NCBI GenBank assembly: GCA_026391455.1
Contig: JAPLEH010000035.1
Location: 186,001 to 250,000, forward strand
DNA length: 64,000 nt
Direction of reading: 5' to 3'
DNA from: Bacteroidota bacterium
GTDB taxonomy: Bacteria; Bacteroidota; Bacteroidia; Chitinophagales; Chitinophagaceae
The notes under the pieces were generated by a model. It was not told the DNA's origin and did no database searches. It saw only the letters and a list, made by a program, of their open reading frames with translations. Of this stretch, positions 43,147-57,421 are shown piece after piece (the stretch's first letter is position 1; every line of letters starts with the position of its first letter). Made by a program: the position numbers and the translations under genes.

Positions 43147-44169
43147 ATGACCTCCAAAGCACAGCAAAACCTGGCGATACAAAAATGGGTAGCCGCTATT
43201 TCGTTTGTGCTGTTGTTTGTAAAATTCACTGCGTATTATTTCACTCATTCTGTAGCCATATTAACCGATGCACTCGAAAGCATTGTGAATGTGGTAGCTG
43301 GACTCATCGGCCTTTATAGCCTGTATGTAGCGGCCAAACCACGGGATAGGGATCATCCTTATGGCCATGGTAAAGCAGAGTTTCTCTCCGCAGCCGTTGA
43401 GGGCACCCTGATAGGGGCTGCAGGAACCATCATTTTATATAAAGCGATTCTCAATCTTATTCATCCGGTTGCTATTCACAGCATCGACACCGGTATCTGG
43501 CTGGTTGCATCTACTGCTGTCGTGAATTTTTTAGTAGGTTACTACTGCCTCCGTATCGGCAGAAGAAATAACTCCCTGGCACTCGAAGCCAGTGGAAAGC
43601 ACCTGCAGACCGATACCTGGTCTACATTGGGAATCATTGCCGGACTGGTGTTGATCCGGATAACCGGTTACTCCTGGCTCGACAGTGCCGTGGCCATCGG
43701 GTTTGGCGTATTCATAGTATATACCGGATATAGTATTATCCGGCATTCCATTGCCGGTATTATGGATGAGGCCGATCAAAAACTGCTAACCCGGCTGGTA
43801 CAGGTACTCAATACAAACCGGCACCCCAACTGGATCGACCTGCACAACCTGCGGGTGATCAAATACGGCAGCGTATTGCATGTGGACTGCCACCTTACAG
43901 TGCCCTGGTACCTCAATGTGCATGAGGCCCACCGGGAAATTGACCTGCTTTCTGAACTCATCCGCAAGGAATTTGGCGAATCATTTGAACTCTTTGTCCA
44001 TTCAGATGGCTGCCTTCCGTTTTCCTGCCGCATCTGCAACAAGCAGGAATGTAACGTACGAAAACATAATTTTGAGCAACAGATTACCTGGACATTGGAA
44101 AATATTCAATCGAATCAAAAACATCAGTTGAAAAATGAAAACGATCACCACGTGGAAACAACAACATGA
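43147..44169 (+). CDS. cation diffusion facilitator (CDF) family transporter
   Basis: 340 residues from the ATG at 43147; a TTG-started extension at 43117 overlaps the terminator region and is unlikely. SVAILTDALESIVNVVAGLI carries the metal-site Asp of helix 2, DHPYGHGKAEFLSAAVEG is the family signature, and helix 5 holds LQTDTWSTLGIIAGL. The cytoplasmic C-terminus ends with a cysteine/histidine-rich part (CLPFSCRICNKQECNVRKHN), which may sense metal. It exports divalent metals such as Zn or Fe using protons. The OsmC gene overlaps its end by 35 nt. Confidence 0.92.
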   Translation: MTSKAQQNLAIQKWVAAISFVLLFVKFTAYYFTHSVAILTDALESIVNVVAGLIGLYSLYVAAKPRDRDHPYGHGKAEFLSAAVEGTLIGAAGTIILYKAILNLIHPVAIHSIDTGIWLVASTAVVNFLVGYYCLRIGRRNNSLALEASGKHLQTDTWSTLGIIAGLVLIRITGYSWLDSAVAIGFGVFIVYTGYSIIRHSIAGIMDEADQKLLTRLVQVLNTNRHPNWIDLHNLRVIKYGSVLHVDCHLTVPWYLNVHEAHREIDLLSELIRKEFGESFELFVHSDGCLPFSCRICNKQECNVRKHNFEQQITWTLENIQSNQKHQLKNENDHHVETTT

Positions 44170-44530
44170 ATTTGAAGCCGATCATGACGGCAATACCATT
44201 CATATTGACGGAGAAAAAAAGAACGGGCATGGTCCCAAAGCCCTGCTGCTCAGCGGGCTGGCCGGATGCAGCGGCATTGATGTAGTGGACATACTGGGTA
44301 AAATGAAGATTGAATTCAGCAATCTCCGTATGGAAGCTGAAGCCACCCTGGCCGATGATCATCCGAAAGTGTTCACCAATGTACATATTACCTATTTTAT
44401 AAAAACAGCACCGGAGCATGAAGACCGGATTAAAAAGGCGATTGAACTATCCCTCGATAAATACTGCGGAGTAGCGGCCATGCTGAAGAAAAATTCACCC
44501 CTGCAATACACCCTTGTAATAGAATCCTGA
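44135..44530 (+). CDS. OsmC-family protein
   Basis: 131 residues. It contains GHGPKALLLSGLAGCSGIDV with the conserved cysteine near residue 48, and ends with DKYCGVAAMLKKNSPLQYTL, which holds the second conserved cysteine. OsmC proteins reduce organic hydroperoxides through these two cysteines. It overlaps the CDF gene and is 2 bp from the Rrf2 gene, so the three are one transcript. This suggests a thiol and oxidant theme at the head of the sulfur region. Confidence 0.9.
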   Translation: MKTITTWKQQHEFEADHDGNTIHIDGEKKNGHGPKALLLSGLAGCSGIDVVDILGKMKIEFSNLRMEAEATLADDHPKVFTNVHITYFIKTAPEHEDRIKKAIELSLDKYCGVAAMLKKNSPLQYTLVIES

Positions 44531-44532
44531 CT

Positions 44533-44940
44533 ATGCTGTCCAAAAAAACACAATATGCGTTCCGGGCACTGGAAGTACTCGTCAAAAAATACGAGCAGGG
44601 TCCGGTATTGATTTCAGAAATAGCCAAAAAGAAAAAAATACCGCTCAAGTTTCTGGAAAATATTCTTTTGCAGTTAAAGAAAGACGGTGTGCTCGACAGC
44701 AAAAAAGGAAAAGGCGGTGGCTACTTCCTGGTCCATAAGCCCTCTAAAGTGCCGGTAGCGCGCATCATACGGGTAGTGGATGGCCCTATTGCCATGCTGC
44801 CTTGTGTAAGCCTCTATTTTTACCAGAAATGTAAGAATTGCGACGAAAAACACTGTGGTCTTCACGACATTATGATCGATGTGCGTGATGCGCAACTCGC
44901 TATACTTGAGAAAAAAACACTGGCCGATCTGATGGTTTGA
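44533..44940 (+). CDS. Rrf2-family transcription regulator
   Basis: 135 residues. The N-terminal winged helix contains VLISEIAKKKKIPLKFLENI and the wing KKGKGGGYFLVHKP. Four cysteines at 91, 100, 103 and 108 lie in the region where IscR-type members bind an iron-sulfur cluster, though the spacing differs from IscR. Members such as CymR and IscR answer to cysteine supply or cluster state. The gene precedes peroxiredoxin-cysH-cysD-cysN, and a palindrome repeated four times in the sulfur region begins 38 bp downstream. It is the obvious candidate for that regulon's regulator. Confidence 0.9.
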   Translation: MLSKKTQYAFRALEVLVKKYEQGPVLISEIAKKKKIPLKFLENILLQLKKDGVLDSKKGKGGGYFLVHKPSKVPVARIIRVVDGPIAMLPCVSLYFYQKCKNCDEKHCGLHDIMIDVRDAQLAILEKKTLADLMV

Positions 44941-44978: not shown

Positions 44979-45002
44979 TATCCTACTTATTTTGTAGGGT
45001 AA
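44979..45002 (+). promoter_or_regulatory. putative Rrf2-type operator, site 1 (before peroxiredoxin)
   Basis: The inverted repeat CCTACTTATTTTGTAGG (44982-44998) is followed by GTAA. The same 24-bp element recurs at 50055, 50142 and 54216. It contains the -33 TTTG of the promoter below, so a bound protein would block RNA polymerase. Confidence 0.6.
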
Positions 45003-45021
45003 TGGTCAGGGGTTATCTTTG
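44991..45021 (+). promoter_or_regulatory. promoter of peroxiredoxin-cys operon
   Basis: TTTG at 44991-44994 and TATCTTTG at 45014-45021, 19 bp apart, match the Bacteroidota -33/-7 consensus exactly. The start codon is 21 bp downstream. Confidence 0.7.
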
Positions 45022-45042
45022 CCCCATTTAAATCAATATATT

Positions 45043-45681
45043 ATGGCATTACGATTAGGCGATACCGCCCCAAATTTCAGGGCGCAAACCACCGAAGGAG
45101 AAATTGATTTTTATGAGTACCTGGGAACCGGATGGGGTATCCTATTCTCCCATCCTGCCGATTTTACACCGGTATGTACCACCGAGTTGGGCAAAACCGC
45201 TTTGTTGCAGGAAGAATTTGCCAAACGCAATGTGAAAGTGCTGGCAGTAAGCATTGACCCGCTGGATAAACATTTTGAATGGCGTAAAGACATCAATGAA
45301 ACACAGCATTGCAGTGTGGGATTTCCCATCATTGCTGACGAGAACAGGGTAGTGGCAGGCCTGTATGATATGATACACCCTAATGCATCTGCGACAGCCA
45401 CCGTACGCTCTCTGTTTGTGATCGGACCCGATAAACTGGTGAAACTGATGATCGTGTATCCGGCATCCACAGGTCGTAATTTTTACGAAGTACTCCGTGT
45501 GGTGGATTCATTGCAGCTTACAGCTAATTACAGTGTGGCAACCCCGGCCGATTGGAAACAAGGAGAAGATGTAATTGTGGTACCTGCTGTATCTACTGAA
45601 GATGCAATTAAAAAATTTGCAAAAGGCGTAACGGTGGTAAAACCATACCTGCGCTATACTCCACAGCCGGATGTTGAGTAA
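45043..45681 (+). CDS. 1-Cys peroxiredoxin (Prx6 type)
   Basis: 212 residues from the ATG at 45043; an in-frame TTG at 45019 lies inside the promoter. SHPADFTPVCTTELG holds the peroxidatic Cys. The length and the C-terminal end GVTVVKPYLRYTPQPD are those of the Prx6 group. It reduces hydroperoxides with thiols. Its last 11 nt overlap cysH, so peroxide defence and sulfate reduction are translated together. It is the first gene of the operon behind operator site 1. Confidence 0.95.
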   Translation: MALRLGDTAPNFRAQTTEGEIDFYEYLGTGWGILFSHPADFTPVCTTELGKTALLQEEFAKRNVKVLAVSIDPLDKHFEWRKDINETQHCSVGFPIIADENRVVAGLYDMIHPNASATATVRSLFVIGPDKLVKLMIVYPASTGRNFYEVLRVVDSLQLTANYSVATPADWKQGEDVIVVPAVSTEDAIKKFAKGVTVVKPYLRYTPQPDVE

Positions 45682-46363
45682 AGATACCATAGCACAATTG
45701 CAGGAGGCTTCTTTACCAGACGGTTTATCTTTACTGGCAAAACTATACCCGGGTGAAATCGCTTTCTCCTGTTCTCTTGGCCAGGAAGACCAGGTGATTA
45801 CCGATGCTATTTGCCGCCAGCAATTGAATATCCGGATATTTACACTTGATACAGGCCGTTTATTCAGTGAGACCTATGAACTGATCGAACGCACCACAGC
45901 GAGGTATAAACGAAAAATGGAGATCTATTTTCCTGCCCCGGAAGATGTGGAACCCTTTGTGAAAGAAAATGGCATTAACAGCTTTTATGAATCCGTTGAA
46001 AATCGCAAAGCCTGTTGCCATATCCGGAAAGTAAAACCGCTCAACCGGGCCCTTGCTGGCGCAAAGATTTGGATAACCGGATTACGTGCCGGCCAATCCG
46101 ATAACCGGAAAGACATGCCGGTAATCGAATGGGATGAAGTAAGACAATTATATAAATACAACCCGTTGATCAGTTGGACTGGTGAGGAAGTAAACGAATA
46201 TATTCATCAGCATCATGTACCATACAATCCGTTACACGATAAAGGGTTTCTCAGTATTGGTTGTGCCCCTTGTACCCGAGCTGTGGAACCGGGCGAAGAC
46301 GAAAGGGCAGGTCGGTGGTGGTGGGAGCAGTCACAAAAAGAATGTGGCCTGCACCAATCCTGA
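45671..46363 (+). CDS. cysH: APS/PAPS reductase, probably APS type
   Basis: 230 residues. FSCSLGQEDQVITDAICRQQ is the nucleotide-binding start and FTLDTGRLFSETYE the PAPS-reductase signature. KACCHIRKVKPL and GCAPCTRAVEPG give the CC...CxxC set that binds a 4Fe-4S cluster in APS-using enzymes. ERAGRWWWEQSQKECGLHQS carries the catalytic Cys. It reduces adenylyl sulfate to sulfite. No cysC-like kinase is present in the window, which fits direct use of APS. No sulfite reductase is seen here. Confidence 0.95.
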   Translation: MLSKDTIAQLQEASLPDGLSLLAKLYPGEIAFSCSLGQEDQVITDAICRQQLNIRIFTLDTGRLFSETYELIERTTARYKRKMEIYFPAPEDVEPFVKENGINSFYESVENRKACCHIRKVKPLNRALAGAKIWITGLRAGQSDNRKDMPVIEWDEVRQLYKYNPLISWTGEEVNEYIHQHHVPYNPLHDKGFLSIGCAPCTRAVEPGEDERAGRWWWEQSQKECGLHQS

Positions 46364-46415
46364 ATATTATTACAGTTGACGGTATGAACGCCCAACTGAA
46401 AAATGAATAAAAGAA

Positions 46416-47315
46416 ATGCAATCAGATTATCTCGAACAACTGGAAGCGGAAAGCATTTATATTTTTCGCGAAGTAGCTGCACAATTTGAGCGGCCCGCGC
46501 TATTATTCAGCGGCGGCAAGGATTCCATTACACTGGTACACCTGGCAGTAAAAGCTTTTGCGCCGGGTAAGATCCCGTTTCCGTTGGTACATATTGATAC
46601 CGGACATAATTTCCCCGAAGCATTGGCATTTCGCGACTGGCTGGCTCAGGAAGTAGGGGCCACGCTTATTGTACGTAAGGTAGAGGATACCATTAAAGCG
46701 AAAGGACTCACCGAACCCAAGGGAAAATTTCCCAGCCGCAATTGGTTACAAACTTATACTCTGTTGGATACCATTGAAGAGTTTGCATTCGATTGCTGTA
46801 TCGGTGGTGCAAGACGCGATGAAGAAAAAGCCAGGGCCAAAGAACGGATTTTTTCGGTGCGCGATGAGTTTGGCCAATGGGATCCCAAACTGCAACGCCC
46901 AGAACTCTGGAATATCTTCAATGGCCGTATACACAAAGGCGAAAACGTAAGAGTGTTTCCAATCAGCAACTGGACGGAGCTGGACATCTGGAATTATATC
47001 CGAAAAGAAAATATCGCATTGCCTTCTATCTATTTTGCCCACGAACGAAAAGTCATCGCACACGAAGGGCAATTGGTAGCATTGAGTGATTTTATTCAGC
47101 CCGGCCCCGAAGATGAGGTGATCACCAGGATGGTTCGCTATCGTACGGTGGGTGATATGACTTGTACCGCTGCGGTGGAGTCTACGGCTGCCACACTCGA
47201 CGAAGTGATCAATGAAATTATTGCCACCCGTATCAGTGAACGCGGTGAAACGAGAATCGATGACCGGGTAACGGAAGCAGCGATGGAGGACAGGAAGAAG
47301 AATGGATACTTTTAA
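46416..47315 (+). CDS. cysD: sulfate adenylyltransferase subunit 2
   Basis: 299 residues, normal length. RPALLFSGGKDSITLVHLAV is the PP-loop, and FPLVHIDTGHNFPEALAFRD and CCIGGARRDEEKARAKERIF are family signatures. With CysN it makes adenylyl sulfate from sulfate and ATP. It follows cysH after 52 bp. It is unusually separated from cysN by a 494-bp repeat block. Confidence 0.97.
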   Translation: MQSDYLEQLEAESIYIFREVAAQFERPALLFSGGKDSITLVHLAVKAFAPGKIPFPLVHIDTGHNFPEALAFRDWLAQEVGATLIVRKVEDTIKAKGLTEPKGKFPSRNWLQTYTLLDTIEEFAFDCCIGGARRDEEKARAKERIFSVRDEFGQWDPKLQRPELWNIFNGRIHKGENVRVFPISNWTELDIWNYIRKENIALPSIYFAHERKVIAHEGQLVALSDFIQPGPEDEVITRMVRYRTVGDMTCTAAVESTAATLDEVINEIIATRISERGETRIDDRVTEAAMEDRKKNGYF

Positions 47316-47809
47316 TTAGCTAATGTGCTAATCTGCTAATGTGATAATGAAAGAACGGGATTTCGTATCAATAAAGTTATTCTTTGTGCTCTTTCATGCC
47401 TGTCGGCAGATAAATGTGGGAGAGGAAATGTGAGAATGTGAAAATGTGGAAATGAGACAACGGAATCTCGTTTGAGTATTGTTGTTCTTTGTGTACTTAG
47501 TGGGAGAAAAAAATGTGCTAAATTATAAAACGGAATTTCGTTTCAATATTATTTTTCTTTGTGCTCTTTGTGGGATAAAATGTGCTGATGTGTAAATGAG
47601 GTAATGTGGAAATGTGCTAATGATAAAACGGAATTTCGTATCAATAAAGTTATTCTTTGTGCGCTTTCATGCCTGTCGGCAGATAAATGTGGGAGAGAAA
47701 ATGTGAGAATGTAGAAATGTGGAAATGAGAGAATGGAATTTGGTTTTATTAATATAATTCTTTGTGCTCTTTGATGCCAGACGGCAGATAAAGGCGGAAA
47801 AAATAGAAT
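47316..47809. repeat. five degenerate direct repeats between cysD and cysN
   Basis: Units of 60-107 bp start near 47354, 47459, 47528, 47623 and 47730. Each opens with a variant of ACGGAATTTCGTATCAATAA, continues TTCTTTGTGCTCTTTCATGC and ends in runs of AATGTGGAAATGTGAGAA. Units 1 and 4 are almost identical over about 100 bp. No ORF or promoter is obvious. Confidence 0.9.
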
Positions 47810-49051
47810 ATGGATTTACTGAGATTTATAACAGCAGGTAGTGTGGATGATGGGAAGAGTACGCTCATCGGACGATTGCTTTATGATAGTAAAAGTATTC
47901 TCGCCGATCAGCTGGAGGCATTGGAGCGCTCTACCAAAAACCGCACCGACGGATCTGTGGATCTTGCTTTGCTCACCGACGGATTAAGAGCCGAAAGAGA
48001 GCAGGGTATCACCATCGACGTAGCCTACCGGTATTTCACAACACCAAAACGGAAGTTTATTATCGCGGATGCCCCCGGGCATGTACAATACACCCGCAAT
48101 ATGATCACGGGCGCATCCAACGCCTCGCTGATCATTATTCTCATTGATGCAAGACAAGGTGTGGTGGAACAGACCCGCCGCCATTCGATCATTGCTTCCC
48201 TGCTCAACATACCCGAAGTGGTTGTGGCCATTAATAAAATGGACCTTGTGGATCATTCTGAAAATGTCTTCAATAACATCGTGATTGATTATGCTGAAGT
48301 GGCACGTCAATTAGGACTCACTAATGTAACGTATATTCCGATCAGCGCATTGAATGGAGACAATATCGTGGATCGTTCGGAGAGTAATAAATGGTACAAG
48401 GGTAAAACATTGCTGCAGCACCTGGAAGAAACAACAGTAACGAAATCCGTAGAAGCAACGGTCTCCCGTTTTCAGGTACAGTTGGTGATCCGTCCACAAA
48501 CGGAAGCCCTGCACGATTACCGGGGATATGCCGGAACGGTAATCAGTGGCGTATATCGCAAAGGGGATAAAGTAAAAGTATTACCACAGGGAATAGAGAC
48601 CACCATTACCCAACTCGAAACGGGAGGGGTGCAGGTGGATGAAGTTTCAGCCCAGCAGCCAGCTATCATCCACCTGGCCGATGATATTGATATCAGCCGG
48701 GGTGATTCGATCGTTCCGATTGATCAGTTGCCCCTTGTGTCGAACGAAATTGAGGCGCTTGTATGCTGGATGGATGAAAAGCCACTCCGTGCCGGAAACA
48801 AATACCTGCTACAGCATAATCACCGATTGGTGAAAGTAATGGTAAAACGGATCGACTATAAACTGGATGTAAATACATTACAACAACAGGCAGTGGAAGG
48901 GGAGGTGAAACTAAATGAAGTGATTAAAGTAACCCTGAAGACGGCCTCACCCCTGGTATATGATCCATATATGTCGATCAGGGCAAATGGCAGCGCGATA
49001 TTGATCGATGAAACGAGCAACAGTACTGCAGCCGCGGTATTATTTCAATAA
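47810..49051 (+). CDS. cysN: sulfate adenylyltransferase subunit 1 (GTPase)
   Basis: 413 residues. The G1 motif AGSVDDGKSTLIGRLL, REQGITIDVAYRYF (switch I region), G3 DAPGHVQYTRNM and G4 NKMD are intact. EF-Tu-like beta-barrels follow. It lacks a fused APS kinase domain. GTP hydrolysis drives sulfate activation by CysD. The start lies just after the repeat block, so it needs either read-through from cysD or a promoter inside the repeats. TauE follows 74 bp downstream. Confidence 0.97.
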   Translation: MDLLRFITAGSVDDGKSTLIGRLLYDSKSILADQLEALERSTKNRTDGSVDLALLTDGLRAEREQGITIDVAYRYFTTPKRKFIIADAPGHVQYTRNMITGASNASLIIILIDARQGVVEQTRRHSIIASLLNIPEVVVAINKMDLVDHSENVFNNIVIDYAEVARQLGLTNVTYIPISALNGDNIVDRSESNKWYKGKTLLQHLEETTVTKSVEATVSRFQVQLVIRPQTEALHDYRGYAGTVISGVYRKGDKVKVLPQGIETTITQLETGGVQVDEVSAQQPAIIHLADDIDISRGDSIVPIDQLPLVSNEIEALVCWMDEKPLRAGNKYLLQHNHRLVKVMVKRIDYKLDVNTLQQQAVEGEVKLNEVIKVTLKTASPLVYDPYMSIRANGSAILIDETSNSTAAAVLFQ

Positions 49052-49125
49052 GAAAAAGAAAAAGTTGCTCCTTACTGTCTGAATTTCAATTTATACATAT
49101 AAGTCTATTTCACGAAATATACATC

Positions 49126-50049
49126 ATGTTAACTGCACCCAAAAAACGGGTTGAGCCTAAAACGGATTCCGGCGCTGTTCAATGGTACCGTGTAGTTAGC
49201 TGGTGCTTACTGGCATTTGGCGTGTTAATACTGGGATATTTTATTTTCCGGTATGTACCGGTACAGAAAATGGTGGATGAAAGTTACCGTTGGTACAAGA
49301 CACTCGACCGATCTTTTCTTATCATGTTGCTGGCCGGTTTTGTCGCACAAATGGTGGATGGGGCGTTGGGTATGGGCTATGGGGTTACCAGTGCCACCAT
49401 CTTATTATCTGCGGGTGTAAATCCTGCCGCGATCAGTGGCAGTATTCACACCGCAGAGATGTTTGCCAGTGGAGCATCGGGTTACAGCCATTATAAATTT
49501 GGCAACGTCAATAAGAAATTATTCAAAGCGCTATTGATACCCGGCGTACTGGGTGCCGTGGCCGGAGCATTGTTGCTGGTACTGGCCGGTGAGAAATATG
49601 GTAAGATCATTCGCCCGGTTATTGCTTTTTATACTTTGCTATTGGGTATCAAGTTTATCCTCAATGCATTCCGGGAAATAAAGCCACAAAAGAAATTCAG
49701 GCATTATCGCTTACTCGCGGGTATCGGCGGATTCTTTGATTCTTTCGGCGGTGGGGGATGGGGCCCCATTGTAACCAGTACGCTTATTAACAACGGACGA
49801 AGCCATAAATATGTAGTAGGTTCGGTAAGCCTCACCGAGTTTTTCGTTACCCTTGCCAGCGCCTTTACGTTTTTTACCCTGATCGGATTGAGCCATTGGC
49901 AAACGATACTCGGGCTGATTCTGGGTGGATTGGTGGCGGCTCCTATCGCAGCTAAACTCGCCGGAAAGCTTCCCCGCAAAACAGCGTTTCTCCTGCTCGG
50001 TACGCTGGTGATCATCTGGAGTATACGGATCCTGGTAAAAATTATCTGA
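49126..50049 (+). CDS. TauE/SafE-family anion transporter
   Basis: 307 residues. After one N-terminal helix, the family motif FVAQMVDGALGMGYGVTSAT opens the first half, and GGFFDSFGGGGWGPIVTSTL is the matching motif of the second half. About eight helices in total. Members move sulfite, sulfonates or sulfate. Its place directly after cysN suggests sulfate or sulfite as substrate; uptake or export cannot be told from sequence. Confidence 0.92.
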   Translation: MLTAPKKRVEPKTDSGAVQWYRVVSWCLLAFGVLILGYFIFRYVPVQKMVDESYRWYKTLDRSFLIMLLAGFVAQMVDGALGMGYGVTSATILLSAGVNPAAISGSIHTAEMFASGASGYSHYKFGNVNKKLFKALLIPGVLGAVAGALLLVLAGEKYGKIIRPVIAFYTLLLGIKFILNAFREIKPQKKFRHYRLLAGIGGFFDSFGGGGWGPIVTSTLINNGRSHKYVVGSVSLTEFFVTLASAFTFFTLIGLSHWQTILGLILGGLVAAPIAAKLAGKLPRKTAFLLLGTLVIIWSIRILVKII

Positions 50050-50054
50050 GAAAA

Positions 50055-50078
50055 TTGTCTATTAATTTGGTAGGGTAA
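50055..50078 (+). promoter_or_regulatory. putative Rrf2-type operator, site 2 (before TonB receptor)
   Basis: TCTATTAATTTGGTAGGGTA matches site 1, with a weaker left arm. It overlaps the TTTG (50066-50069) of the promoter that follows. Confidence 0.5.
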
Positions 50079-50097
50079 TACTTAGCCATTATTTTTG
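50066..50097 (+). promoter_or_regulatory. promoter of TonB receptor gene
   Basis: TTTG at 50066-50069 and TATTTTTG at 50090-50097, 20 bp apart, fit the Bacteroidota consensus. The transcript would carry a leader of about 75 nt that includes a small hairpin and operator site 3. Confidence 0.55.
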
Positions 50098-50110
50098 CTG
50101 CTGAATAATT

Positions 50111-50130
50111 AAAGCCTGAAAGGGCTTTTT
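50111..50130 (+). terminator. small hairpin with T run, possible terminator or attenuator
   Basis: AAAGCC and GGCTTT arms, loop TGAAAG, followed by T. It is short. It lies after TauE but also inside the presumed leader of the TonB receptor mRNA, so it could act as either. Confidence 0.4.
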
Positions 50131-50141
50131 AAATACTTTTA

Positions 50142-50165
50142 TATCCTACTAAATTAGTAGACTAA
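50142..50165 (+). promoter_or_regulatory. putative Rrf2-type operator, site 3 (best palindrome)
   Basis: CTACTAAATTAGTAG (50147-50161) is symmetric except for the central base and is flanked by the same TATC and CTAA as the other sites. It lies 15 bp before the TonB receptor start and lacks the TTTG box, so it would act as a roadblock or second site. Confidence 0.6.
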
Positions 50166-50180
50166 TAAAATAACAACTGC

Positions 50181-53108
50181 ATGAAACATTTGATTCTTCT
50201 TGTTGGCTTACTGGTTCCGCTGGGATTGCTGGCTCAGTTGAATGGCTCCTTTATTTTGAGTGGCCGCGTGGTGAGTGAGGAGCAAGGGGGCATTGCTGCT
50301 GCCAGTATTTCGGTAAAGGGTACTACAGCTGGTACCATCGCCGATTCAACGGGCCGTTTTTCATTGGTGGTCAATCAGAAACTGCCCTTTACGCTGGTCG
50401 TGTCTTCCGTAGGTTTTGCACCCCAGGAGATCGAGATAAAAAACACAAATACGAAACCCACCATTCAGCTTACCACACAAACATTTCTGGCCAATGCCGT
50501 GGTGGTTACGGCCAGCCGCACATCCGAAAAAATTCTGAAGTCGCCGGTAAGTATTGAAAAATTGAATATTACCGCATTAAAAGAAACGCCGGCTGCTTCT
50601 TTTTACGATGCATTGGGAAATGTAAAAGGAGTACAGCTTACCACTTCCTCTATCACGTTTAAAGTACCCAATACCCGGGGCTTCAATATCCCTAATAATT
50701 TTCGCTTCATGCAATTGGTGGACGGTATTGATATGCAGGCCGCCACATTGGGTGTACCATTGGGAAATGCCATTGGCCCCACCGAACTGGATGTACAGAG
50801 CATTGAAATCACACCCGGTGCTGCATCCGCCTTGTACGGTATGAATGCGATCAACGGATTGGCGAACCTGCTTACAAAAAATCCCTTTAAAAGTCAGGGC
50901 CTTAGTTTTTTTCAACGTACCGGTATCAACCATGTGGATGGCTCCGATCATGAACCTGCTTTACTAACGGAGACGGCTATACGCTATGCCAAAGCATTTA
51001 AAGATAAATTCGCTTTTAAGATAAACCTTGGCTACCTCCATGCTACCGATTGGATATCCGATACACGGCAGGATCAGAATCCCAACACGAAGAACACAGC
51101 CAATCCTGCCTATCCTTCGCTCAATGGGGCCAATAATATTGCATTTGATGGATGGAATAAATACGGCGATGATGCATTGCAACTCAGCAATACTGTATCA
51201 GTGACGGGGCTTACCATCGATGGGGTAAATAACCGAACGCTCACGGTGGCCCGTACCGGCTATTGGGAAAAAGACCTCGTTAAACCAGAAGTGGATAATC
51301 TGAAACTCGATCTCGCTCTTCATTTTAAGCCCAATAGCCGCAATGAGATTGCTTATACCTATCGTGTTGGAAAAATGGATGGTGTATTTCAACGTGGCAA
51401 TAAGGTAAAACTGGACAATGTGGTGGTACAGAACCACCAGGTGGAATGGAAAGGTTCGCACCTGGTGCTGAAAGGATATGTATCAATAGAAAATACGGGC
51501 GATTCTTATAATGTAAAACCATTGGCCGACAACCTCGACTTATATACCGGTGGCAGTGCCAGTGTATGGGGAGCAAAATTTAAAAGCGCACTCAATGCCT
51601 ATGCGGCTGCAAACGGGGGAGCTTTAACGGCGCAAAACCTCGCTGCTGCTACGGCATTTGCCCGCCAGCAAGCTGATGCGGGCAGGGCAATACCCGGCAC
51701 GGAACGTTTCAACCGCCTGGTGGATACGATCCGCCATATCAACAACTGGGATATCCGCTCCTCCACGATACCTGATGCCCCCATTACCGGAGGTGCCGCA
51801 TTGATTCAAAAAAGTAATATTTATCACCTGGAAGGACAGTGGGATCTTACCCACCGGGTGAAATGGTTCAACCTGCTGGTAGGTGCTGATGCAAGAATAA
51901 ATGAGCTGATACCCGATGGCAATAACTTTGTTGATTTCTCCCGCCCTATAGCCGAACGTAATACGTCCTTGAAAGATGGCAGTTTTGGTAAGAATATTTA
52001 TTATAAAAAATTCGGTGCCTTCTTTCAGGCTACCAAAACATTTTTTGAAGAGAAATTAAAAATATGGGGATCCCTGCGTGCAGATTATAACCCCGAGTTT
52101 CAGATCAGGTTCACGCCACGCATTGCCGCTGTATATACCGCAGCCGAGCGTCACAATATCCGCTTAACGTTTCAGCAAGGCTATCGTTTTCCGGCCTTGT
52201 TTGAAGCCCTCTCCTATGTAAATAATGGCCGGGTAAAAAGGGTGGGCATACTTCCCATTATTAATGAAGGATTAGGATTTCGGGAGAACAGTTATACACA
52301 ACCTTCTGTAGCAGCTTTCAATGCTGCCGTTCGGGCGGCTGGTAATACGGATGCAGCCGCATTGGCCAACCGCAATCTCCTGCAGGTAGCCAATCTGCCG
52401 GATGGTCGTCCAGAAGGAATTAACTCATTCGAAGCGGGATACAAAAGCAGCCTGCTCAACAATAAATTATTTATCGATTTTGATATCTATGCCAATATTT
52501 ATGATGGCTTTCTCGGACAGGTACAAGTGTATGTACCCCGCGGCGAAAAAGTGGGCTCCGATGCAGCCGTAATTGCCATGATCGACCGCAACAGGGATGC
52601 CACCGTTGCCAGTGGCGGTAATGCAGCGAGCAAAGGACAGGACCGTTACCGGGTATATACCAATGCTAAAAATAAATACACTACGTACGGGTCTTCGCTC
52701 GGGGTGACATGGAATTTTTATAAAACATTTACCGTATCCGGCAATGTGAATTATAATAAAATAAAGGGCAGCAGCATTCCAGATCTTTTTGTAACTGGGT
52801 TCAATACACCCGAATGGACCACCAACCTGTCTTTTGGTAACCGGGCCATAACAAAAAACCTTGGCTTTAATATCGTTTGGAAATGGCAGGACAGTTTTTT
52901 ATGGGAAAGTCCTCTGGTGACCGGTAATGTAGGAGCTATCAATAATATTGATGCACAGATCACCTGGCGGGTCCCGGCAGCGAAATCAACGTTCAAATTT
53001 GGCGGGTCGAATGTGCTGAACAACCGGTATATCCAGTACGCGGGCGGGCCAACCATCGGAGCGCTCTATTATGTGTCCTATACACTGGAGGGATTGTTCA
53101 ATAAATAA
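50181..53108 (+). CDS. TonB-dependent receptor, probably for a sulfur compound
   Basis: 975 residues. The signal peptide ends at GLLAQ. A carboxypeptidase-regulatory-like domain (about residues 25-110: LSGRVVSEEQGGIAAASISV) is followed by a plug domain (NTRGFNIPNNFRFMQLVDGI; ALYGMNAINGLANLLTKNPF) and a 22-strand-type barrel. It imports large or scarce solutes through the outer membrane with TonB energy. No SusD partner is present. Location after cysHDN/TauE and two shared operators point to a sulfur-containing substrate. That substrate is inference. Confidence 0.93.
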   Translation: MKHLILLVGLLVPLGLLAQLNGSFILSGRVVSEEQGGIAAASISVKGTTAGTIADSTGRFSLVVNQKLPFTLVVSSVGFAPQEIEIKNTNTKPTIQLTTQTFLANAVVVTASRTSEKILKSPVSIEKLNITALKETPAASFYDALGNVKGVQLTTSSITFKVPNTRGFNIPNNFRFMQLVDGIDMQAATLGVPLGNAIGPTELDVQSIEITPGAASALYGMNAINGLANLLTKNPFKSQGLSFFQRTGINHVDGSDHEPALLTETAIRYAKAFKDKFAFKINLGYLHATDWISDTRQDQNPNTKNTANPAYPSLNGANNIAFDGWNKYGDDALQLSNTVSVTGLTIDGVNNRTLTVARTGYWEKDLVKPEVDNLKLDLALHFKPNSRNEIAYTYRVGKMDGVFQRGNKVKLDNVVVQNHQVEWKGSHLVLKGYVSIENTGDSYNVKPLADNLDLYTGGSASVWGAKFKSALNAYAAANGGALTAQNLAAATAFARQQADAGRAIPGTERFNRLVDTIRHINNWDIRSSTIPDAPITGGAALIQKSNIYHLEGQWDLTHRVKWFNLLVGADARINELIPDGNNFVDFSRPIAERNTSLKDGSFGKNIYYKKFGAFFQATKTFFEEKLKIWGSLRADYNPEFQIRFTPRIAAVYTAAERHNIRLTFQQGYRFPALFEALSYVNNGRVKRVGILPIINEGLGFRENSYTQPSVAAFNAAVRAAGNTDAAALANRNLLQVANLPDGRPEGINSFEAGYKSSLLNNKLFIDFDIYANIYDGFLGQVQVYVPRGEKVGSDAAVIAMIDRNRDATVASGGNAASKGQDRYRVYTNAKNKYTTYGSSLGVTWNFYKTFTVSGNVNYNKIKGSSIPDLFVTGFNTPEWTTNLSFGNRAITKNLGFNIVWKWQDSFLWESPLVTGNVGAINNIDAQITWRVPAAKSTFKFGGSNVLNNRYIQYAGGPTIGALYYVSYTLEGLFNK

Positions 53109-53145
53109 TATTCATCTTAGTTCTTTATACATAGGCAATCGTTAG

Positions 53146-53177
53146 AAAAAGGCGTCCGTCGACGGACGGATGCCTTT
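53146..53177 (+). terminator. hairpin terminator after TonB receptor
   Basis: AAAGGCGTCCGTC and GACGGACGGATGCCTTT arms form a long stem with very little loop. It lies 37 bp past the receptor stop and 8 bp before the tRNA. Confidence 0.7.
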
Positions 53178-53184
53178 ACACATC

Positions 53185-53255
53185 AACCCCGTGGCTGAGT
53201 GGACAGGCAGAGGGCTGCAAATCCTTTTACGTTGGTTCGAATCCAACCGGGGAGT
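53185..53255 (+). tRNA. tRNA-Cys (GCA) with mispaired acceptor end
   Basis: The D arm (GGCTGAGTGGACAGGC), anticodon arm with GCA at 53217-53219, and T arm (GTTGG TTCGAAT CCAAC) are all standard, and the base after the acceptor strand is T, as in tRNA-Cys. The 5' strand AACCCCG pairs with CGGGGAG at only five of seven positions; the two outermost pairs are A-A and A-G. No CCA is encoded. It is either a real tRNA with an unusual acceptor stem or a decaying copy. Confidence 0.75.
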
Positions 53256-53285
53256 CTTATTTTTAAGGGCATTAATAGCAAGCAT

Positions 53286-54050
53286 TTGAAAAAGAAACTT
53301 TTGATCGGCATTTTCATAGCAGGTATGTACAGTCATTCCGCTCTGGCGCAGGTGAAGCAGACGGAACATATACAGCAAGTATGGCTGGCCTATTTTAACC
53401 AAACGCGATTTTCCCAAAAATGGGGTGGCTGGGCCGATCTGCACCTCCGTACTAAAGAAGATTTCTTTACCAATTTTTCCCAGTCGATCATCCGGCTCGG
53501 ACTTACGTATTATCTGACGGATGATGCAAAACTGACTGCCGGCTATGCCTATATCAATCATTTTCCGGGCGATAATCATAAAAATATCTCACAACCCGAA
53601 CACCGACCCTGGCAACAACTGCAGTGGCATACAAAATACCCGAAACTAAAATTGATGCAATGGTTTCGGCTGGAAGAACGGTATCGCAGGAAAATAAAAG
53701 ACGATAATACACTGGCGGAAGGATATAATTTCAATTTCAGAATCCGGTACAATTTCTTCTCCCAGTTTGGCCTCGGCAAAAAGAAATTTCAACCCGGTTC
53801 GTTTTCGGTTGTGCTGAATGATGAACTGCATGTGAACTTCGGTAAACAGGTCGTTAATAATTATTTTGATCAAAACCGTTTTTTTGCCGGCTTCAATTAT
53901 CATGTAAATAAGCACGATAACCTGCAGTTCGGCTACATGAATGTATTTCAGCAACTCGCAGCCGGTAATCGGTATCGCAGCAATTCGACCGCACGCATAT
54001 TCTATTTTCATAATCTGGATTTGAGAAAATCCATTGCCCCCGGCAAATAG
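53286..54050 (+). CDS. DUF2490-type outer-membrane protein
   Basis: 254 residues from a TTG at 53286, which gives a clean signal peptide (KKKLLIGIFIAGMYSHSALA). The open frame reaches back into the tRNA, which cannot be coding. The body is strand-rich: EHIQQVWLAYFNQTRFSQKW, GLTYYLTDDAKLTAGYAYIN and FRLEERYRRKI are typical of DUF2490 barrels. It ends in strands near RIFYFHNLDLRK. It may be a small outer-membrane channel. Function is unknown; it follows the TonB receptor and tRNA-Cys. Confidence 0.75.
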   Translation: MKKKLLIGIFIAGMYSHSALAQVKQTEHIQQVWLAYFNQTRFSQKWGGWADLHLRTKEDFFTNFSQSIIRLGLTYYLTDDAKLTAGYAYINHFPGDNHKNISQPEHRPWQQLQWHTKYPKLKLMQWFRLEERYRRKIKDDNTLAEGYNFNFRIRYNFFSQFGLGKKKFQPGSFSVVLNDELHVNFGKQVVNNYFDQNRFFAGFNYHVNKHDNLQFGYMNVFQQLAAGNRYRSNSTARIFYFHNLDLRKSIAPGK

Positions 54051-54060
54051 CATTTGTTAG

Positions 54061-54210
54061 CTACCCCCTCCCGGGTGTTAAGGTATACTTAAAGGAAATG
54101 TAATAGAGGAACTGATCTTTCGTACTGACGGCGCGTGTATCCAATCGGTATTCACAAAGTACGGTTAAATCAGCCGTTTTTGAAAATAAAGGCAGGGGAC
54201 TTGTTGTTAT
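54061..54210 (-). pseudogene. possible 3' remnant of a beta-barrel gene
   Basis: A 50-codon open frame ending at a TAG at 54061 reads SKTADLTVLCEYRLDTRAVS and then TKDQFLYYISFKYTL, which looks like the last two strands of an outer-membrane barrel. There is no start codon or upstream domain, and a stop lies in frame before it. It lies opposite to the neighbours. It may be a gene remnant, or chance. Confidence 0.35.
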
Positions 54211-54215
54211 CCGAT

Positions 54216-54239
54216 TAGTCTACTAAATTTGTAGGGTAA
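54216..54239 (+). promoter_or_regulatory. putative Rrf2-type operator, site 4 (before AhpD-like gene)
   Basis: GTCTACTAAATTTGTAGGGT matches sites 1 and 3. It contains TTTG at 54228-54231. TATATTAG at 54255-54262, 23 bp on, is a near match to the -7 box. The start codon is 30 bp past the site. Confidence 0.6.
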
Positions 54240-54268: not shown

Positions 54269-54808
54269 ATGGCTCGTATTGCTCCCCTTTCGGAGACTGA
54301 GTTGCCACCTTCGGTACAGGTGGCTTTCGAAAGACATATTAAGGAATATAATGCCCGTATTACGAATATGAAGGCAACCTTGGGACACGCCCTTCCTGCC
54401 TTTGATGCCTATATGCAATGGTATCCGCTATTCCGGGAAGTAGAACGTATTTTAGGGAAGCGCCTGGCTTGTCTCTACGCTTTTGCTATCTCCACGGCTT
54501 CGGATTGTCCGCTTTGTTCAACCTATTTCCGAAAATTGATCATTGAGTCCGGGGAAAACCCGGAACAACCCGCACTAACGAATGTGCAGAAATATGTGCT
54601 GGAATTCGGGGCGAGTATTGCCAAACACCAGGGCCATATCGCGGATCATATTTATAACCCGGTAAGTCATTTGTATAATAAGTCTGATATAATTATACTG
54701 ATTGCATTTGCAGGACAGATGATCGCTACCAATGTACTGAATAATGTACTTGAAACGGAAGTGGATGATTACCTGGTTGAGTATTTGCCTAATCTGAAGT
54801 ATTGCTGA
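54269..54808 (+). CDS. carboxymuconolactone decarboxylase/AhpD-fold protein
   Basis: 179 residues, all-helical. MARIAPLSETELPPSVQVAF is a typical start. The CxxC motif lies in STASDCPLCSTYFRKL, where the last Cys is followed by a Thr rather than the SxxHxx seen in AhpD. QKYVLEFGASIAKHQGHIAD and FAGQMIATNVLNNVL form the second helical pair. The family includes thiol peroxidase partners and decarboxylases. A redox role is likely from the CxxC and from the sulfur-region operator in front of it, but the reaction is unknown. Confidence 0.8.
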   Translation: MARIAPLSETELPPSVQVAFERHIKEYNARITNMKATLGHALPAFDAYMQWYPLFREVERILGKRLACLYAFAISTASDCPLCSTYFRKLIIESGENPEQPALTNVQKYVLEFGASIAKHQGHIADHIYNPVSHLYNKSDIIILIAFAGQMIATNVLNNVLETEVDDYLVEYLPNLKYC

Positions 54809-54932: not shown

Positions 54933-56147
54933 ATGCATTTCAATTACCTGGCATTCGCCGTTCCTTTATTTACCGGATTGATGTACCTCGAGTATTATAT
55001 CAGCGTAAAACGTAACAAAGCCGGTAATTTCAATTTTAATGAAGCGATCGCGAATATTAATGTGGGAATTGCAGAACGCTTGTCTGATCTGTTTACCACA
55101 GGCGTATTCTATTTTTTCTTTGTTTGGATCTATCAGCATTTTTCTTTATTTACCATCAAGCCGGGCCCGATAACCTGGTTGTTGCTTTTTTTGGCAACTG
55201 ACTTTGCCTGGTACTGGTACCACCGTTTCGGGCACGAAGTGAATCTGTTTTGGAGCGTACATGTTGTCCATCACCAAAGTGATGATTATAATTTTACCGT
55301 GTCAGCCCGCATTACGGTATTACAGGCTGCAGCCAGATGTTTATTCTGGTCTGTTTTACCCCTGCTGGGTTTCCCGCCTGCTATGATCACTGTTTTGCTG
55401 TTGATCCATGGCACTTATCCCTTTTTTACGCATACCCAATTGGTGGGTAAACTGGGCTGGCTGGAGTATATATTTGTAACTCCATCTCACCATCGTGTAC
55501 ACCATAGTTGCAACGAAAAATATCTTGATAAAAATTATGGCGATGTATTGATTATCTGGGATAAACTCTTTGGCACTTTTGCAAAAGAAACAGAAACACC
55601 CCGGTATGGTCTTACAAAGCCACTCAACAGCTATAGTTTTTTATGGCAGCATTTTCACTTTTGGTTAGAAATGGTTATCAGCTTCCGCCGTGCTAATGGA
55701 TGGAGAGCAAAATGGAAGGCTATTTTCGGTCGTCCGGATGATATTGATCCGCGTATCCGGACAAGCCTGGAGCGGAAACTTTCTTTCCGTCAACAGGAAT
55801 TAACCCATTCTACCCTGTTGCTGAATTATATACGGGTACAGACACTTATCAATCTGACATTGCTTTTTGGCGTTATTTTCTTTGAGCATTATATAAGCGG
55901 GAGTAAGATTTTTGTATTGTCGTTGTTGATCATTGTCAGCGTAATTACAACCGGGGCAATGCTGGAACAACGACGATGGATCTTTCACCTGGAGTTTGTG
56001 AAGCTGGCACTGTTCGGAATTTTTACCAGCCTCTCATATCCTAATTTTAATCTGGGCGTTTTTTTACTAACCGTCGGAATCTTGGTCTTATTGTTTTACA
56101 GAAGCATAGGTAACCGTTATTATCACTATTTGTATAAAGAAAGCTAG
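54933..56147 (+). CDS. sterol desaturase/fatty acid hydroxylase family membrane protein
   Basis: 404 residues. The di-iron histidine boxes are present as HRFGHEVNLFW, HVVHHQSDDYNF and SHHRVHHSCNEKYLDKNYGD, within the first 210 residues. Two to four helices lie before and between them. The last 150 residues hold further helices, which makes it longer than the minimal enzyme. Members hydroxylate lipids, and some cleave ether lipids. It lies 124 bp after the AhpD-like gene, possibly in the same transcript, so the sulfur-responsive promoter may reach it. Confidence 0.9.
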   Translation: MHFNYLAFAVPLFTGLMYLEYYISVKRNKAGNFNFNEAIANINVGIAERLSDLFTTGVFYFFFVWIYQHFSLFTIKPGPITWLLLFLATDFAWYWYHRFGHEVNLFWSVHVVHHQSDDYNFTVSARITVLQAAARCLFWSVLPLLGFPPAMITVLLLIHGTYPFFTHTQLVGKLGWLEYIFVTPSHHRVHHSCNEKYLDKNYGDVLIIWDKLFGTFAKETETPRYGLTKPLNSYSFLWQHFHFWLEMVISFRRANGWRAKWKAIFGRPDDIDPRIRTSLERKLSFRQQELTHSTLLLNYIRVQTLINLTLLFGVIFFEHYISGSKIFVLSLLIIVSVITTGAMLEQRRWIFHLEFVKLALFGIFTSLSYPNFNLGVFLLTVGILVLLFYRSIGNRYYHYLYKES

Positions 56148-56248
56148 TACCTGTTTCTCTTTAGCAAAAACATACCAGTCTTGTAGCTGAAAACTTCATA
56201 TTGTAATTGTATCTTCGCTGCGATTTCTCCATTGATAAATTGCAGTAT

Positions 56249-57421
56249 ATGTCACACAAACCCGAAACAAAGGCCATCCGCATTCAAACCACGCAGACGT
56301 CACAAAAGGAACATGCCACTCCTTTGTTTCTGACAAGCAGCTTTACGTATGACTCCGCTGAGGATATGGCGGCAGCATTTGCCGATGATACACTGGATGT
56401 AAATATATACTCGCGGTTTTCCAATCCTTCCGTCGATGAGTTTGTCAATAAGATCGCAGCACTCGAGGGTGCAGAAGACGGAGTAGCTACCGGTACCGGA
56501 ATGGCAGCCGTATTTGCCACCTTTATGACCTTTCTTTCCAAAGGCGATCATATCATTTCTGCATCGGCCGTTTTTGGATCCACACATACGATCCTTACCA
56601 AGTATCTTCCCAAATGGGGGATAGAATATTCTTATTTTGATATGGATGAACCCGCTTCCATTGAGCCCCTGATTCGATCCAATACCCGGATGCTGTATGT
56701 GGAAACTCCTTCCAACCCGGGGCTTAATATCATCGATCTGGAAAGGGTCGCCTCGCTCTGCCGTGTACATAATATTCTACTGGTGGTTGATAATTGTTTT
56801 GCCACACCGGCTGTACAACAACCCATTCAGTTTGGTGCGGATCTGGTATTACATTCTGCCACTAAATTCATTGACGGACAAGGCCGTGTACTCGGTGGGG
56901 TGGTAGTGGGAAAAAAAGAACTCATTCAGCAATTGTATTTATTTATCCGCAATACCGGACCGTCTATGAGCCCCTTCAATGCCTGGGTATTGTCAAAAAG
57001 CCTCGAAACATTATTCATTCGTATGGACCGCCATGCCGCGAGTGCATTGTATATTGCTCAACAAGTGCAGGAACATCCACAAGTGAGTCTCGTACGGTAT
57101 CCCTTTCTACCCACCCATCCCCAATATCATATTGCCAAAAAGCAAATGAGCAATGGTGGCGGTATCGTAACATTTGAACTGAAAGGAGGAGTGGAAAGCG
57201 GACGTGCATTTCTCAATGCCTTACAAATGATCTCCCGCACCAACAACCTGGGCGACAGCCGCACCATCGCCTCTCATCCCGCATCTACCACACATTCCAA
57301 GCTTACGGAAGAAGAACGACAGGCGGTGGGTATTACGCCCGGATTGATTCGGGTGTCTGTAGGTTTGGAGAATGTACAGGATATTCTCGATGATATTAAA
57401 CAGGCGCTAAGTAAATGCTGA
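56249..57421 (+). CDS. metZ: O-succinylhomoserine sulfhydrylase type PLP enzyme
   Basis: 390 residues from the ATG at 56249 (MSHKPETKAIRIQTTQTSQK); 14 more in-frame codons upstream are not family-like. YSRFSNPSVDEFVNKIAALE, the PLP-phosphate segment and LHSATKFIDGQGRVLGG with the PLP lysine are clear. The FIDGQGR continuation is typical of MetZ rather than of cystathionine gamma-lyase. It joins sulfide to an activated homoserine to give homocysteine, the exit of the sulfate pathway encoded upstream. No operator copy is seen in front of it. Confidence 0.92.
   Translation: MSHKPETKAIRIQTTQTSQKEHATPLFLTSSFTYDSAEDMAAAFADDTLDVNIYSRFSNPSVDEFVNKIAALEGAEDGVATGTGMAAVFATFMTFLSKGDHIISASAVFGSTHTILTKYLPKWGIEYSYFDMDEPASIEPLIRSNTRMLYVETPSNPGLNIIDLERVASLCRVHNILLVVDNCFATPAVQQPIQFGADLVLHSATKFIDGQGRVLGGVVVGKKELIQQLYLFIRNTGPSMSPFNAWVLSKSLETLFIRMDRHAASALYIAQQVQEHPQVSLVRYPFLPTHPQYHIAKKQMSNGGGIVTFELKGGVESGRAFLNALQMISRTNNLGDSRTIASHPASTTHSKLTEEERQAVGITPGLIRVSVGLENVQDILDDIKQALSKC

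Follow-up and report, generated by a model that had tools for sequence, protein, structure and literature searches.

Control of sulfur genes by a protein of the Rrf2 superfamily is already known from Firmicutes, in which CymR of Bacillus and Staphylococcus has cysteine and sulfur genes as targets. Other members of the superfamily, such as IscR and NsrR, have isc/suf or nitric oxide (NO) genes as targets. IscR holds an iron-sulfur (Fe-S) cluster by three cysteines sitting before a long C-terminal helix, and activates some promoters while repressing others. Enterobacteria govern their sulfate assimilation genes by CysB, an activator of the unrelated LysR family. NsrR and RirA likewise hold their Fe-S cluster by three cysteines. 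For Bacteroidota, our literature search, which had most subscription journals and regulon databases outside its scope, found no account of an Rrf2 sulfur regulon. The window analysed here is a stretch of 64,000 nucleotides from a Bacteroidota bacterium of the Chitinophagaceae (assembly GCA_026391455.1, contig JAPLEH010000035.1, positions 186,001 to 250,000), which holds a cluster of sulfur genes marked by four copies of a 23-bp palindrome. This palindrome very likely serves as operator for the Rrf2-family protein whose gene lies at 44533-44940; the protein would repress sulfur, peroxide and uptake genes resembling the CymR set. From the comparisons below we infer direct binding, repression, the effector and, for a four-cysteine site in this protein, an Fe-S or other metal character.

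The palindrome in the window and its genome

The four copies of the palindrome, with consensus TASYCYACNAANTTNGTRGRSTA, start at 44979, 50055, 50142 and 54216, and each stands just before a gene of the sulfur region, as a preliminary description of this DNA had reported. The symmetric unit measures 23 bp, where 24 bp had been given, and 6 to 9 of its 11 dyad pairs are formed per site. The Rrf2 gene, also as described, ends 38 bp before the first copy. The regulator and its putative operators are as follows.

44533..44940, + strand: Rrf2-family regulator, proposed repressor (TIGR00738 above cut-off; Cys91, Cys100, Cys103 and Cys108 invariant)
44979..45001, no strand: putative operator 1 (23-bp palindrome), covering the -33 TTTG of the peroxiredoxin-cys promoter; position kept in relatives
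50055..50077, no strand: putative operator 2, covering the -33 TTTG of the TonB-receptor promoter
50142..50164, no strand: putative operator 3, in the receptor leader, ending 16 bp before the receptor ATG
54216..54238, no strand: putative operator 4, before a weakly AhpD/CMD-like gene

Paired sites like operators 2 and 3 also precede some TonB receptors in relatives.

When the window was scanned with TCTACTAAATTTGTAGGGTA at up to 3 mismatches, 4 matches were obtained against 0.02 expected, and none of 100 shuffles gave 4. In the whole 5.5-Mb genome, CCTACTAAATTTGTAGGGTA at up to 3 mismatches matched at 3 places, all within the cluster, and the reversed control at 0. A looser 23-mer retrieved nothing but cluster sites at 0-1 mismatch, and cluster sites plus one other place at 2 mismatches; its level of up to 3 mismatches is noise, because the reversed control gives more hits (24, versus 19 strand hits in all). 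The motif might have turned out to be common genome-wide, a possibility raised at the outset. It is not, and since close matches are confined to the cluster, the palindrome sets this region apart from the rest of the genome.

A distant genome (G264) contains 29 palindromes that resemble this motif. The six that were read (L240-L245) have longer flanks in common, GGTTAGTCC...GGACTAACC or similar; they are probably a dispersed repeat, and this genome was left out as support for the regulon. Their repeat-like look would lend itself to reading the window palindrome as a dispersed repeat or an RNA hairpin rather than an operator. We rejected a repeat element here because the window's genome has just four copies, each before a gene; the repeated spacing to promoter boxes and the few coding matches, both described below, also argue against a repeat or a hairpin, which we consider extremely improbable.

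Regulator and palindrome recur together

A match to the window Rrf2 occurs in 121 of 147 genomes of the family, and 93 of these genomes (the window's own included) were counted as having an ortholog, at a cut-off of at least 53% identity; matches of 44-50% identity (G007, G020, G043, G101, G107, G112) were not counted. The motif, at no more than 1 mismatch, is present in 63 of the 93 ortholog genomes versus 2 of the 54 others (Fisher p = 1e-15), while the reversed control is found in 10 and 3 of them respectively, which is not significant. Over all 147 genomes, motif places number 151 and control places 15.

Regions around rrf2 were compared for 60 of the remaining 92 ortholog genomes. Together with the window they form a tree of two well-supported groups: clade A (22 relatives and the window; 98/93), where most rrf2 genes belong to a CDF-OsmC-Rrf2-cys locus, and clade B, whose 38 relatives mostly have the gene beside dapB and parB-parA. 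A matrix built from the window's four sites alone places a site at most 220 bp from rrf2 in 19 of the 22 clade A relatives. In clade B it does so in 2 of 38, i.e. at background, since permuted matrices give about 4% of regions in both clades (0.039 for clade A). Absence of the motif beside orthologous rrf2 genes would, in the preliminary description, have refuted the regulon: it is there at the close orthologs, and elsewhere it stays at cysH, as detailed below. Across the 60 Rrf2 regions a refined matrix matched 41 times between genes, at the sites on which it had been trained, and 4 times within coding sequence, as against 0-2 intergenic sites with ten permuted matrices.

If the Rrf2 protein is the one that binds, clade B genomes should carry the motif at distant cys genes. 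The regions centred on cysD, 60 in number, comprise 48 from ortholog genomes, 10 from genomes without ortholog and 2 from unclear genomes (G023, G037). The motif precedes cysH in 34 of 45 cases in ortholog genomes versus 0 of 7 in genomes without ortholog (Fisher p = 2.4e-4; permuted-matrix rate 0.002). Many clade B genomes were covered by these regions, and the motif was seen before cysH there too; for this reason we dropped the use of clade B rrf2 as a sulfur-unrelated contrast group. The regions of the two unclear genomes, L187 (G037) and L189 (G023), both have the motif before cysH and were kept out of both groups; L190 and L191, which overlap training regions, are not among the 34 positives.

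The motif also precedes some other genes. A tetrapyrrole methyltransferase (TPmet) gene has the motif upstream in 15 of 36 cases in ortholog genomes versus 0 of 6 in those without, and within the 48 ortholog-genome regions it precedes Prx6 in 3 of 3 cases (one being a training site) and TonB receptors in 5 of 6. A gene for sulfite reductase of the large type was found in 5 cases, two of these in the unclear genomes, and all 5 have a site upstream. Divergent sulfite reductase and 5-aminolevulinate (ALA)-synthase-like genes flank the sites of L062 and L189, the ALA-synthase family having been tested on the copy in L057. Porphobilinogen synthase was dropped as a target: the L200 site lies at the 3′ end of that gene, and it is a TonB receptor gene that points away from this site. 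As a separate observation, the stretch 6290-7255 of L181 (G101) shows a divergent Rrf2 gene (44% identical) followed directly by cysH; two variant palindromes, recognised by eye, lie between the two genes, hinting at an operator and a regulator that change together.

Related Rrf2 proteins (E <= 1e-25) are found in 74 of 345 sampled genomes of the phylum. Outside the family, 20 Rrf2 regions were examined for a matrix score of 13 or more within 300 bp of Rrf2, a level at which permuted matrices give at most 1%; such a match is present in 4/4 regions of family f4, 3/3 of f8 and 7/9 of f5, three families for which the permuted rate is at most 0.006. All 7 f4 genomes with a 68-72% identical Rrf2 carry 1-4 motif copies, and an eighth f4 genome, with just a 45% Rrf2 match, has none. 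In 8 of the 9 f5 regions cysD, cysN, cysH, sulfite reductase or methyltransferase genes stand near Rrf2, and the f5 sites lean toward CTAT-N7-ATAG. The combination of Prx6 with a site recurs in families f1, f4, f5 and f8. On this sequence evidence, regulator and motif are paired not just here but also in further genera of the family and in family f4, and the f8 and f5 matches stand beside Rrf2 genes that are more distant. The proposal of a local sulfur/oxidant regulon is thus supported, except that 'local' is too narrow. We also observed that at five f4 loci (L208, L210, L211, L250, L252) genes for 103-aa proteins read away from strong sites; both proteins tested (L210, L252) have a NIL domain, which we take to be a sulfur-linked domain.

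Several observations weigh against an Rrf2 operator governing a sulfur regulon. The motif at no more than 1 mismatch is missing from 30 of the 93 ortholog genomes, and 11 of the 45 cysH genes in ortholog genomes have no site at threshold; 3 of these 11 have one before a directly preceding Prx6 gene, 3 score 11.0-12.6, and 5 are plain misses or other layouts. CysJ (0/31), CysN (0/46) and TauE (0/14) genes have no site of their own, and CysD genes have few (4/47). Of 30 new motif loci, 12 have nothing pointing away from the site that could be recognised as a sulfur, receptor or hydroxylase gene; at the remaining ones the receptors are generic (27-33% identical). Beyond the family, a matrix match beside Rrf2 is found in 0/2 regions of f3 and 1/2 of f10. 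G089, a genome without Rrf2, has one motif copy, located inside a long open reading frame (ORF; L129). Finally, G023 and G037 have the cysH motif, and no Rrf2 is detectable in them, even by profile search of the assemblies; genomes of the same genus (G120, G128) do have rrf2, so assembly gaps in G023 and G037 are possible, yet unproven.

These last two genomes would be explained at once if another, unlinked transcription factor bound the palindrome and rrf2 were a mere neighbour. We judge this very unlikely: the link persists where rrf2 is elsewhere, both at cysH and in the genome counts given above, and the odd 23-bp length of the palindrome is also that of the NsrR operator (PMC9338935). Binding by the Rrf2 protein itself is the reading retained in what follows.

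Position of the sites relative to promoters

Three of the four window sites contain TTTG (44991-44994, 50066-50069, 54228-54231), and at two of them, 44979 and 50055, a TAnnTTTG box follows after spacers of 19 and 20 bp, in agreement with what had been noticed before. Such spacing matches the Bacteroidota -33/-7 promoter. The two boxes are:

45014..45021, + strand: -7 box TATCTTTG, beginning exactly 35 bp after the start of operator 1
50090..50097, + strand: -7 box TATTTTTG, beginning exactly 35 bp after the start of operator 2

In relatives, TAnnTTTG starts at +35 in 11 of 18 Prx6 sites; at cysH sites it starts at -5 in 17 of 46, at +50 in 6 and at +35 in 1. At 18 receptor, 16 TPmet and 10 CysD sites it was found at none of these three positions. 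One fixed promoter geometry for all targets is therefore rejected, the position of the box varying with the target gene, and the +35 spacing of the window receptor is not conserved, as its relatives lack the box there. Several TPmet and CysD genes have their site ending 0-13 bp before the called start codon. We claim, from predicted boxes, an overlap of sites with promoters for Prx6 and many cysH genes only.

This overlap favours repression. IscR acts both ways at different promoters, and the Rrf2 protein described here might likewise be an activator or a mixed regulator at its sites. The +35 box at most Prx6 sites, which puts the -33 box inside the site, the -7 box overlapping the site edge at 17 of 46 cysH sites, and the sites that abut TPmet and CysD start codons all argue against it, and we regard activation or mixed regulation as improbable; a repressor would be the simplest outcome and is the reading that we keep.

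The regulator and its known relatives

The window Rrf2 passes the superfamily models TIGR00738 (115.3 bits, cut-off 73.3) and PF02082 (113.1, cut-off 30). Its AlphaFold2 model, with a predicted local distance difference test (pLDDT) of 84.9, displays a winged-helix fold and a long C-terminal helix (109-127), the cysteine stretch being placed comparably to that of IscR. Foldseek matches of this model include CymR, IscR and RsrR, among them Thermincola potens IscR, with E down to 3.5e-9; the best one in the PDB is 2y75, B. subtilis CymR, at a template modelling (TM) score of 0.80 and 28% identity. The fold is thus common to both proteins, and yet the window Rrf2 does not reach the models of the described types: it fails the CymR equivalog model NF047409 (63.7 bits versus a cut-off of 195) and stays below the cut-offs of the IscR models TIGR02010 (75.5 versus 207.55) and NF008110 (56.6 versus 275) and of the NsrR model NF008240 (31.8 versus 182).

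Four cysteines, Cys91, Cys100, Cys103 and Cys108, are invariant in 60/60 family orthologs and in 46/46 rows from several families, spaced CX8CX2CX4 or CX8CX2CX5; beyond the DNA-binding half of the regulator, few other residues are invariant. IscR, NsrR, RsrR and RirA have three, so that both number and spacing differ, and CymR, which comes from another phylum, is gapped in the alignment where the four-cysteine loop stands. Nowhere is the model less confident than in this loop (pLDDT 53 to 75 in blocks of ten residues), as we would expect of a metal loop modelled without metal. The four-cysteine site is likely an Fe-S or metal sensor; it may hold an Fe-S cluster or zinc, or form a thiol switch, between which the sequence does not decide.

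The targets also separate this protein from IscR and NsrR, since sulfate assimilation genes take the place of isc/suf or NO genes. No isc/suf gene stands beside the window rrf2, which is surrounded by genes for CDF, OsmC and peroxiredoxin and by cys genes (the regions of relatives were not searched for isc/suf). Four invariant cysteines combined with CymR-like target genes make the regulator look like an IscR-type sensor with CymR-type targets. We tentatively propose, granting it somewhat less than an even chance, a widespread Bacteroidota branch of Rrf2 with invariant CX8CX2CX4-5C and a 23-bp CTAC-N7-GTAG operator, which would do the job of CymR with IscR-like chemistry: its Fe-S or metal site would read cysteine and cluster supply directly, coupling sulfate assimilation to sulfite reductase and TPmet, to thiol peroxidase and to the import of sulfur sources through TonB receptors. 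A serious contender, though one that we would not call probable either, is that the Rrf2 protein binds the operator and cysteine is sensed via a second protein, in the manner of CymR and its partner CysK (O-acetylserine thiol-lyase), the four cysteines being a structural zinc site or a thiol switch and no Fe-S ligand. Targets of the CymR kind and the best fold match, B. subtilis CymR, are in line with a partner protein, whereas the lack of the four-cysteine loop in CymR, and the invariance of these cysteines, argue against this reading.

Genes of the locus

The genes of the cluster, besides rrf2, are all on the + strand.

44135..44530, + strand: OsmC-family gene (Pfam OsmC, 1.3e-19), directly before rrf2, as in many clade A relatives
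45043..45681, + strand: 1-Cys peroxiredoxin, Prx6 type (AhpC-TSA and 1-cysPrx_C domains)
45671..46363, + strand: cysH, (phospho)adenylyl sulfate ((P)APS) reductase
46416..47315, + strand: cysD, sulfate adenylyltransferase small subunit
47810..49051, + strand: cysN, sulfate adenylyltransferase large subunit
49126..50049, + strand: TauE/SafE-family transporter
50181..53108, + strand: TonB-dependent receptor with carboxypeptidase-regulatory-like domain
54269..54808, + strand: weakly AhpD/CMD-like protein with CxxC (CMD E 0.073)
54933..56147, + strand: fatty-acid-hydroxylase-family protein (PF04116; OlsE-like model below cut-off)

The name AhpD-like, given to the gene behind operator 4 in the preliminary description, is weak, the CMD match lying below the Pfam cut-off. 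In three other genomes (L116, L124, L199) the motif likewise stands upstream of a relative of the hydroxylase-family gene; an ORF lies in between or overlaps. The cluster also contains a gene for a DUF2490 protein, between a tRNA-Cys gene and the AhpD/CMD-like gene. This tRNA-Cys (anticodon GCA), at 53185-53256, thus sits inside the sulfur region, after the TonB receptor. The gap between cysD and cysN (47322-47771) contains a direct repeat of 177 nt, its copies 86% alike, as well as a 61-nt unit that occurs five times. Just downstream of the cluster, at 56207-57421, is an O-succinylhomoserine sulfhydrylase-like gene (513 bits, cut-off of the best model 522) with no palindrome before it.

A possible sulfur-responsive circuit

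The predicted target set comprises sulfate activation and reduction, TPmet, sulfite reductase, the 1-Cys peroxiredoxin, TonB receptors and the f4 NIL-domain protein. With sulfur plentiful, as cysteine and, through it, Fe-S clusters, an Rrf2 dimer would sit on the operator and block the promoter. At the promoters of peroxiredoxin-cysHDN and of the receptor the dimer would cover the -33 box, and the second receptor copy would act in the leader. Under sulfur shortage or oxidation of the cell, the protein would leave the operator, and the release would allow joint expression of sulfate activation and reduction, the thiol peroxidase, the outer-membrane receptor and the lipid-hydroxylase-like gene. 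The substrate of this receptor would probably be a sulfur source.

With a regulator, an operator, targets and a likely sensor site now named, the question reduces to one protein and one DNA fragment. Co-regulation with sulfur genes would hint at the cargo of the TonB receptors, and the proposed regulon points to how these bacteria may sense their sulfur supply.

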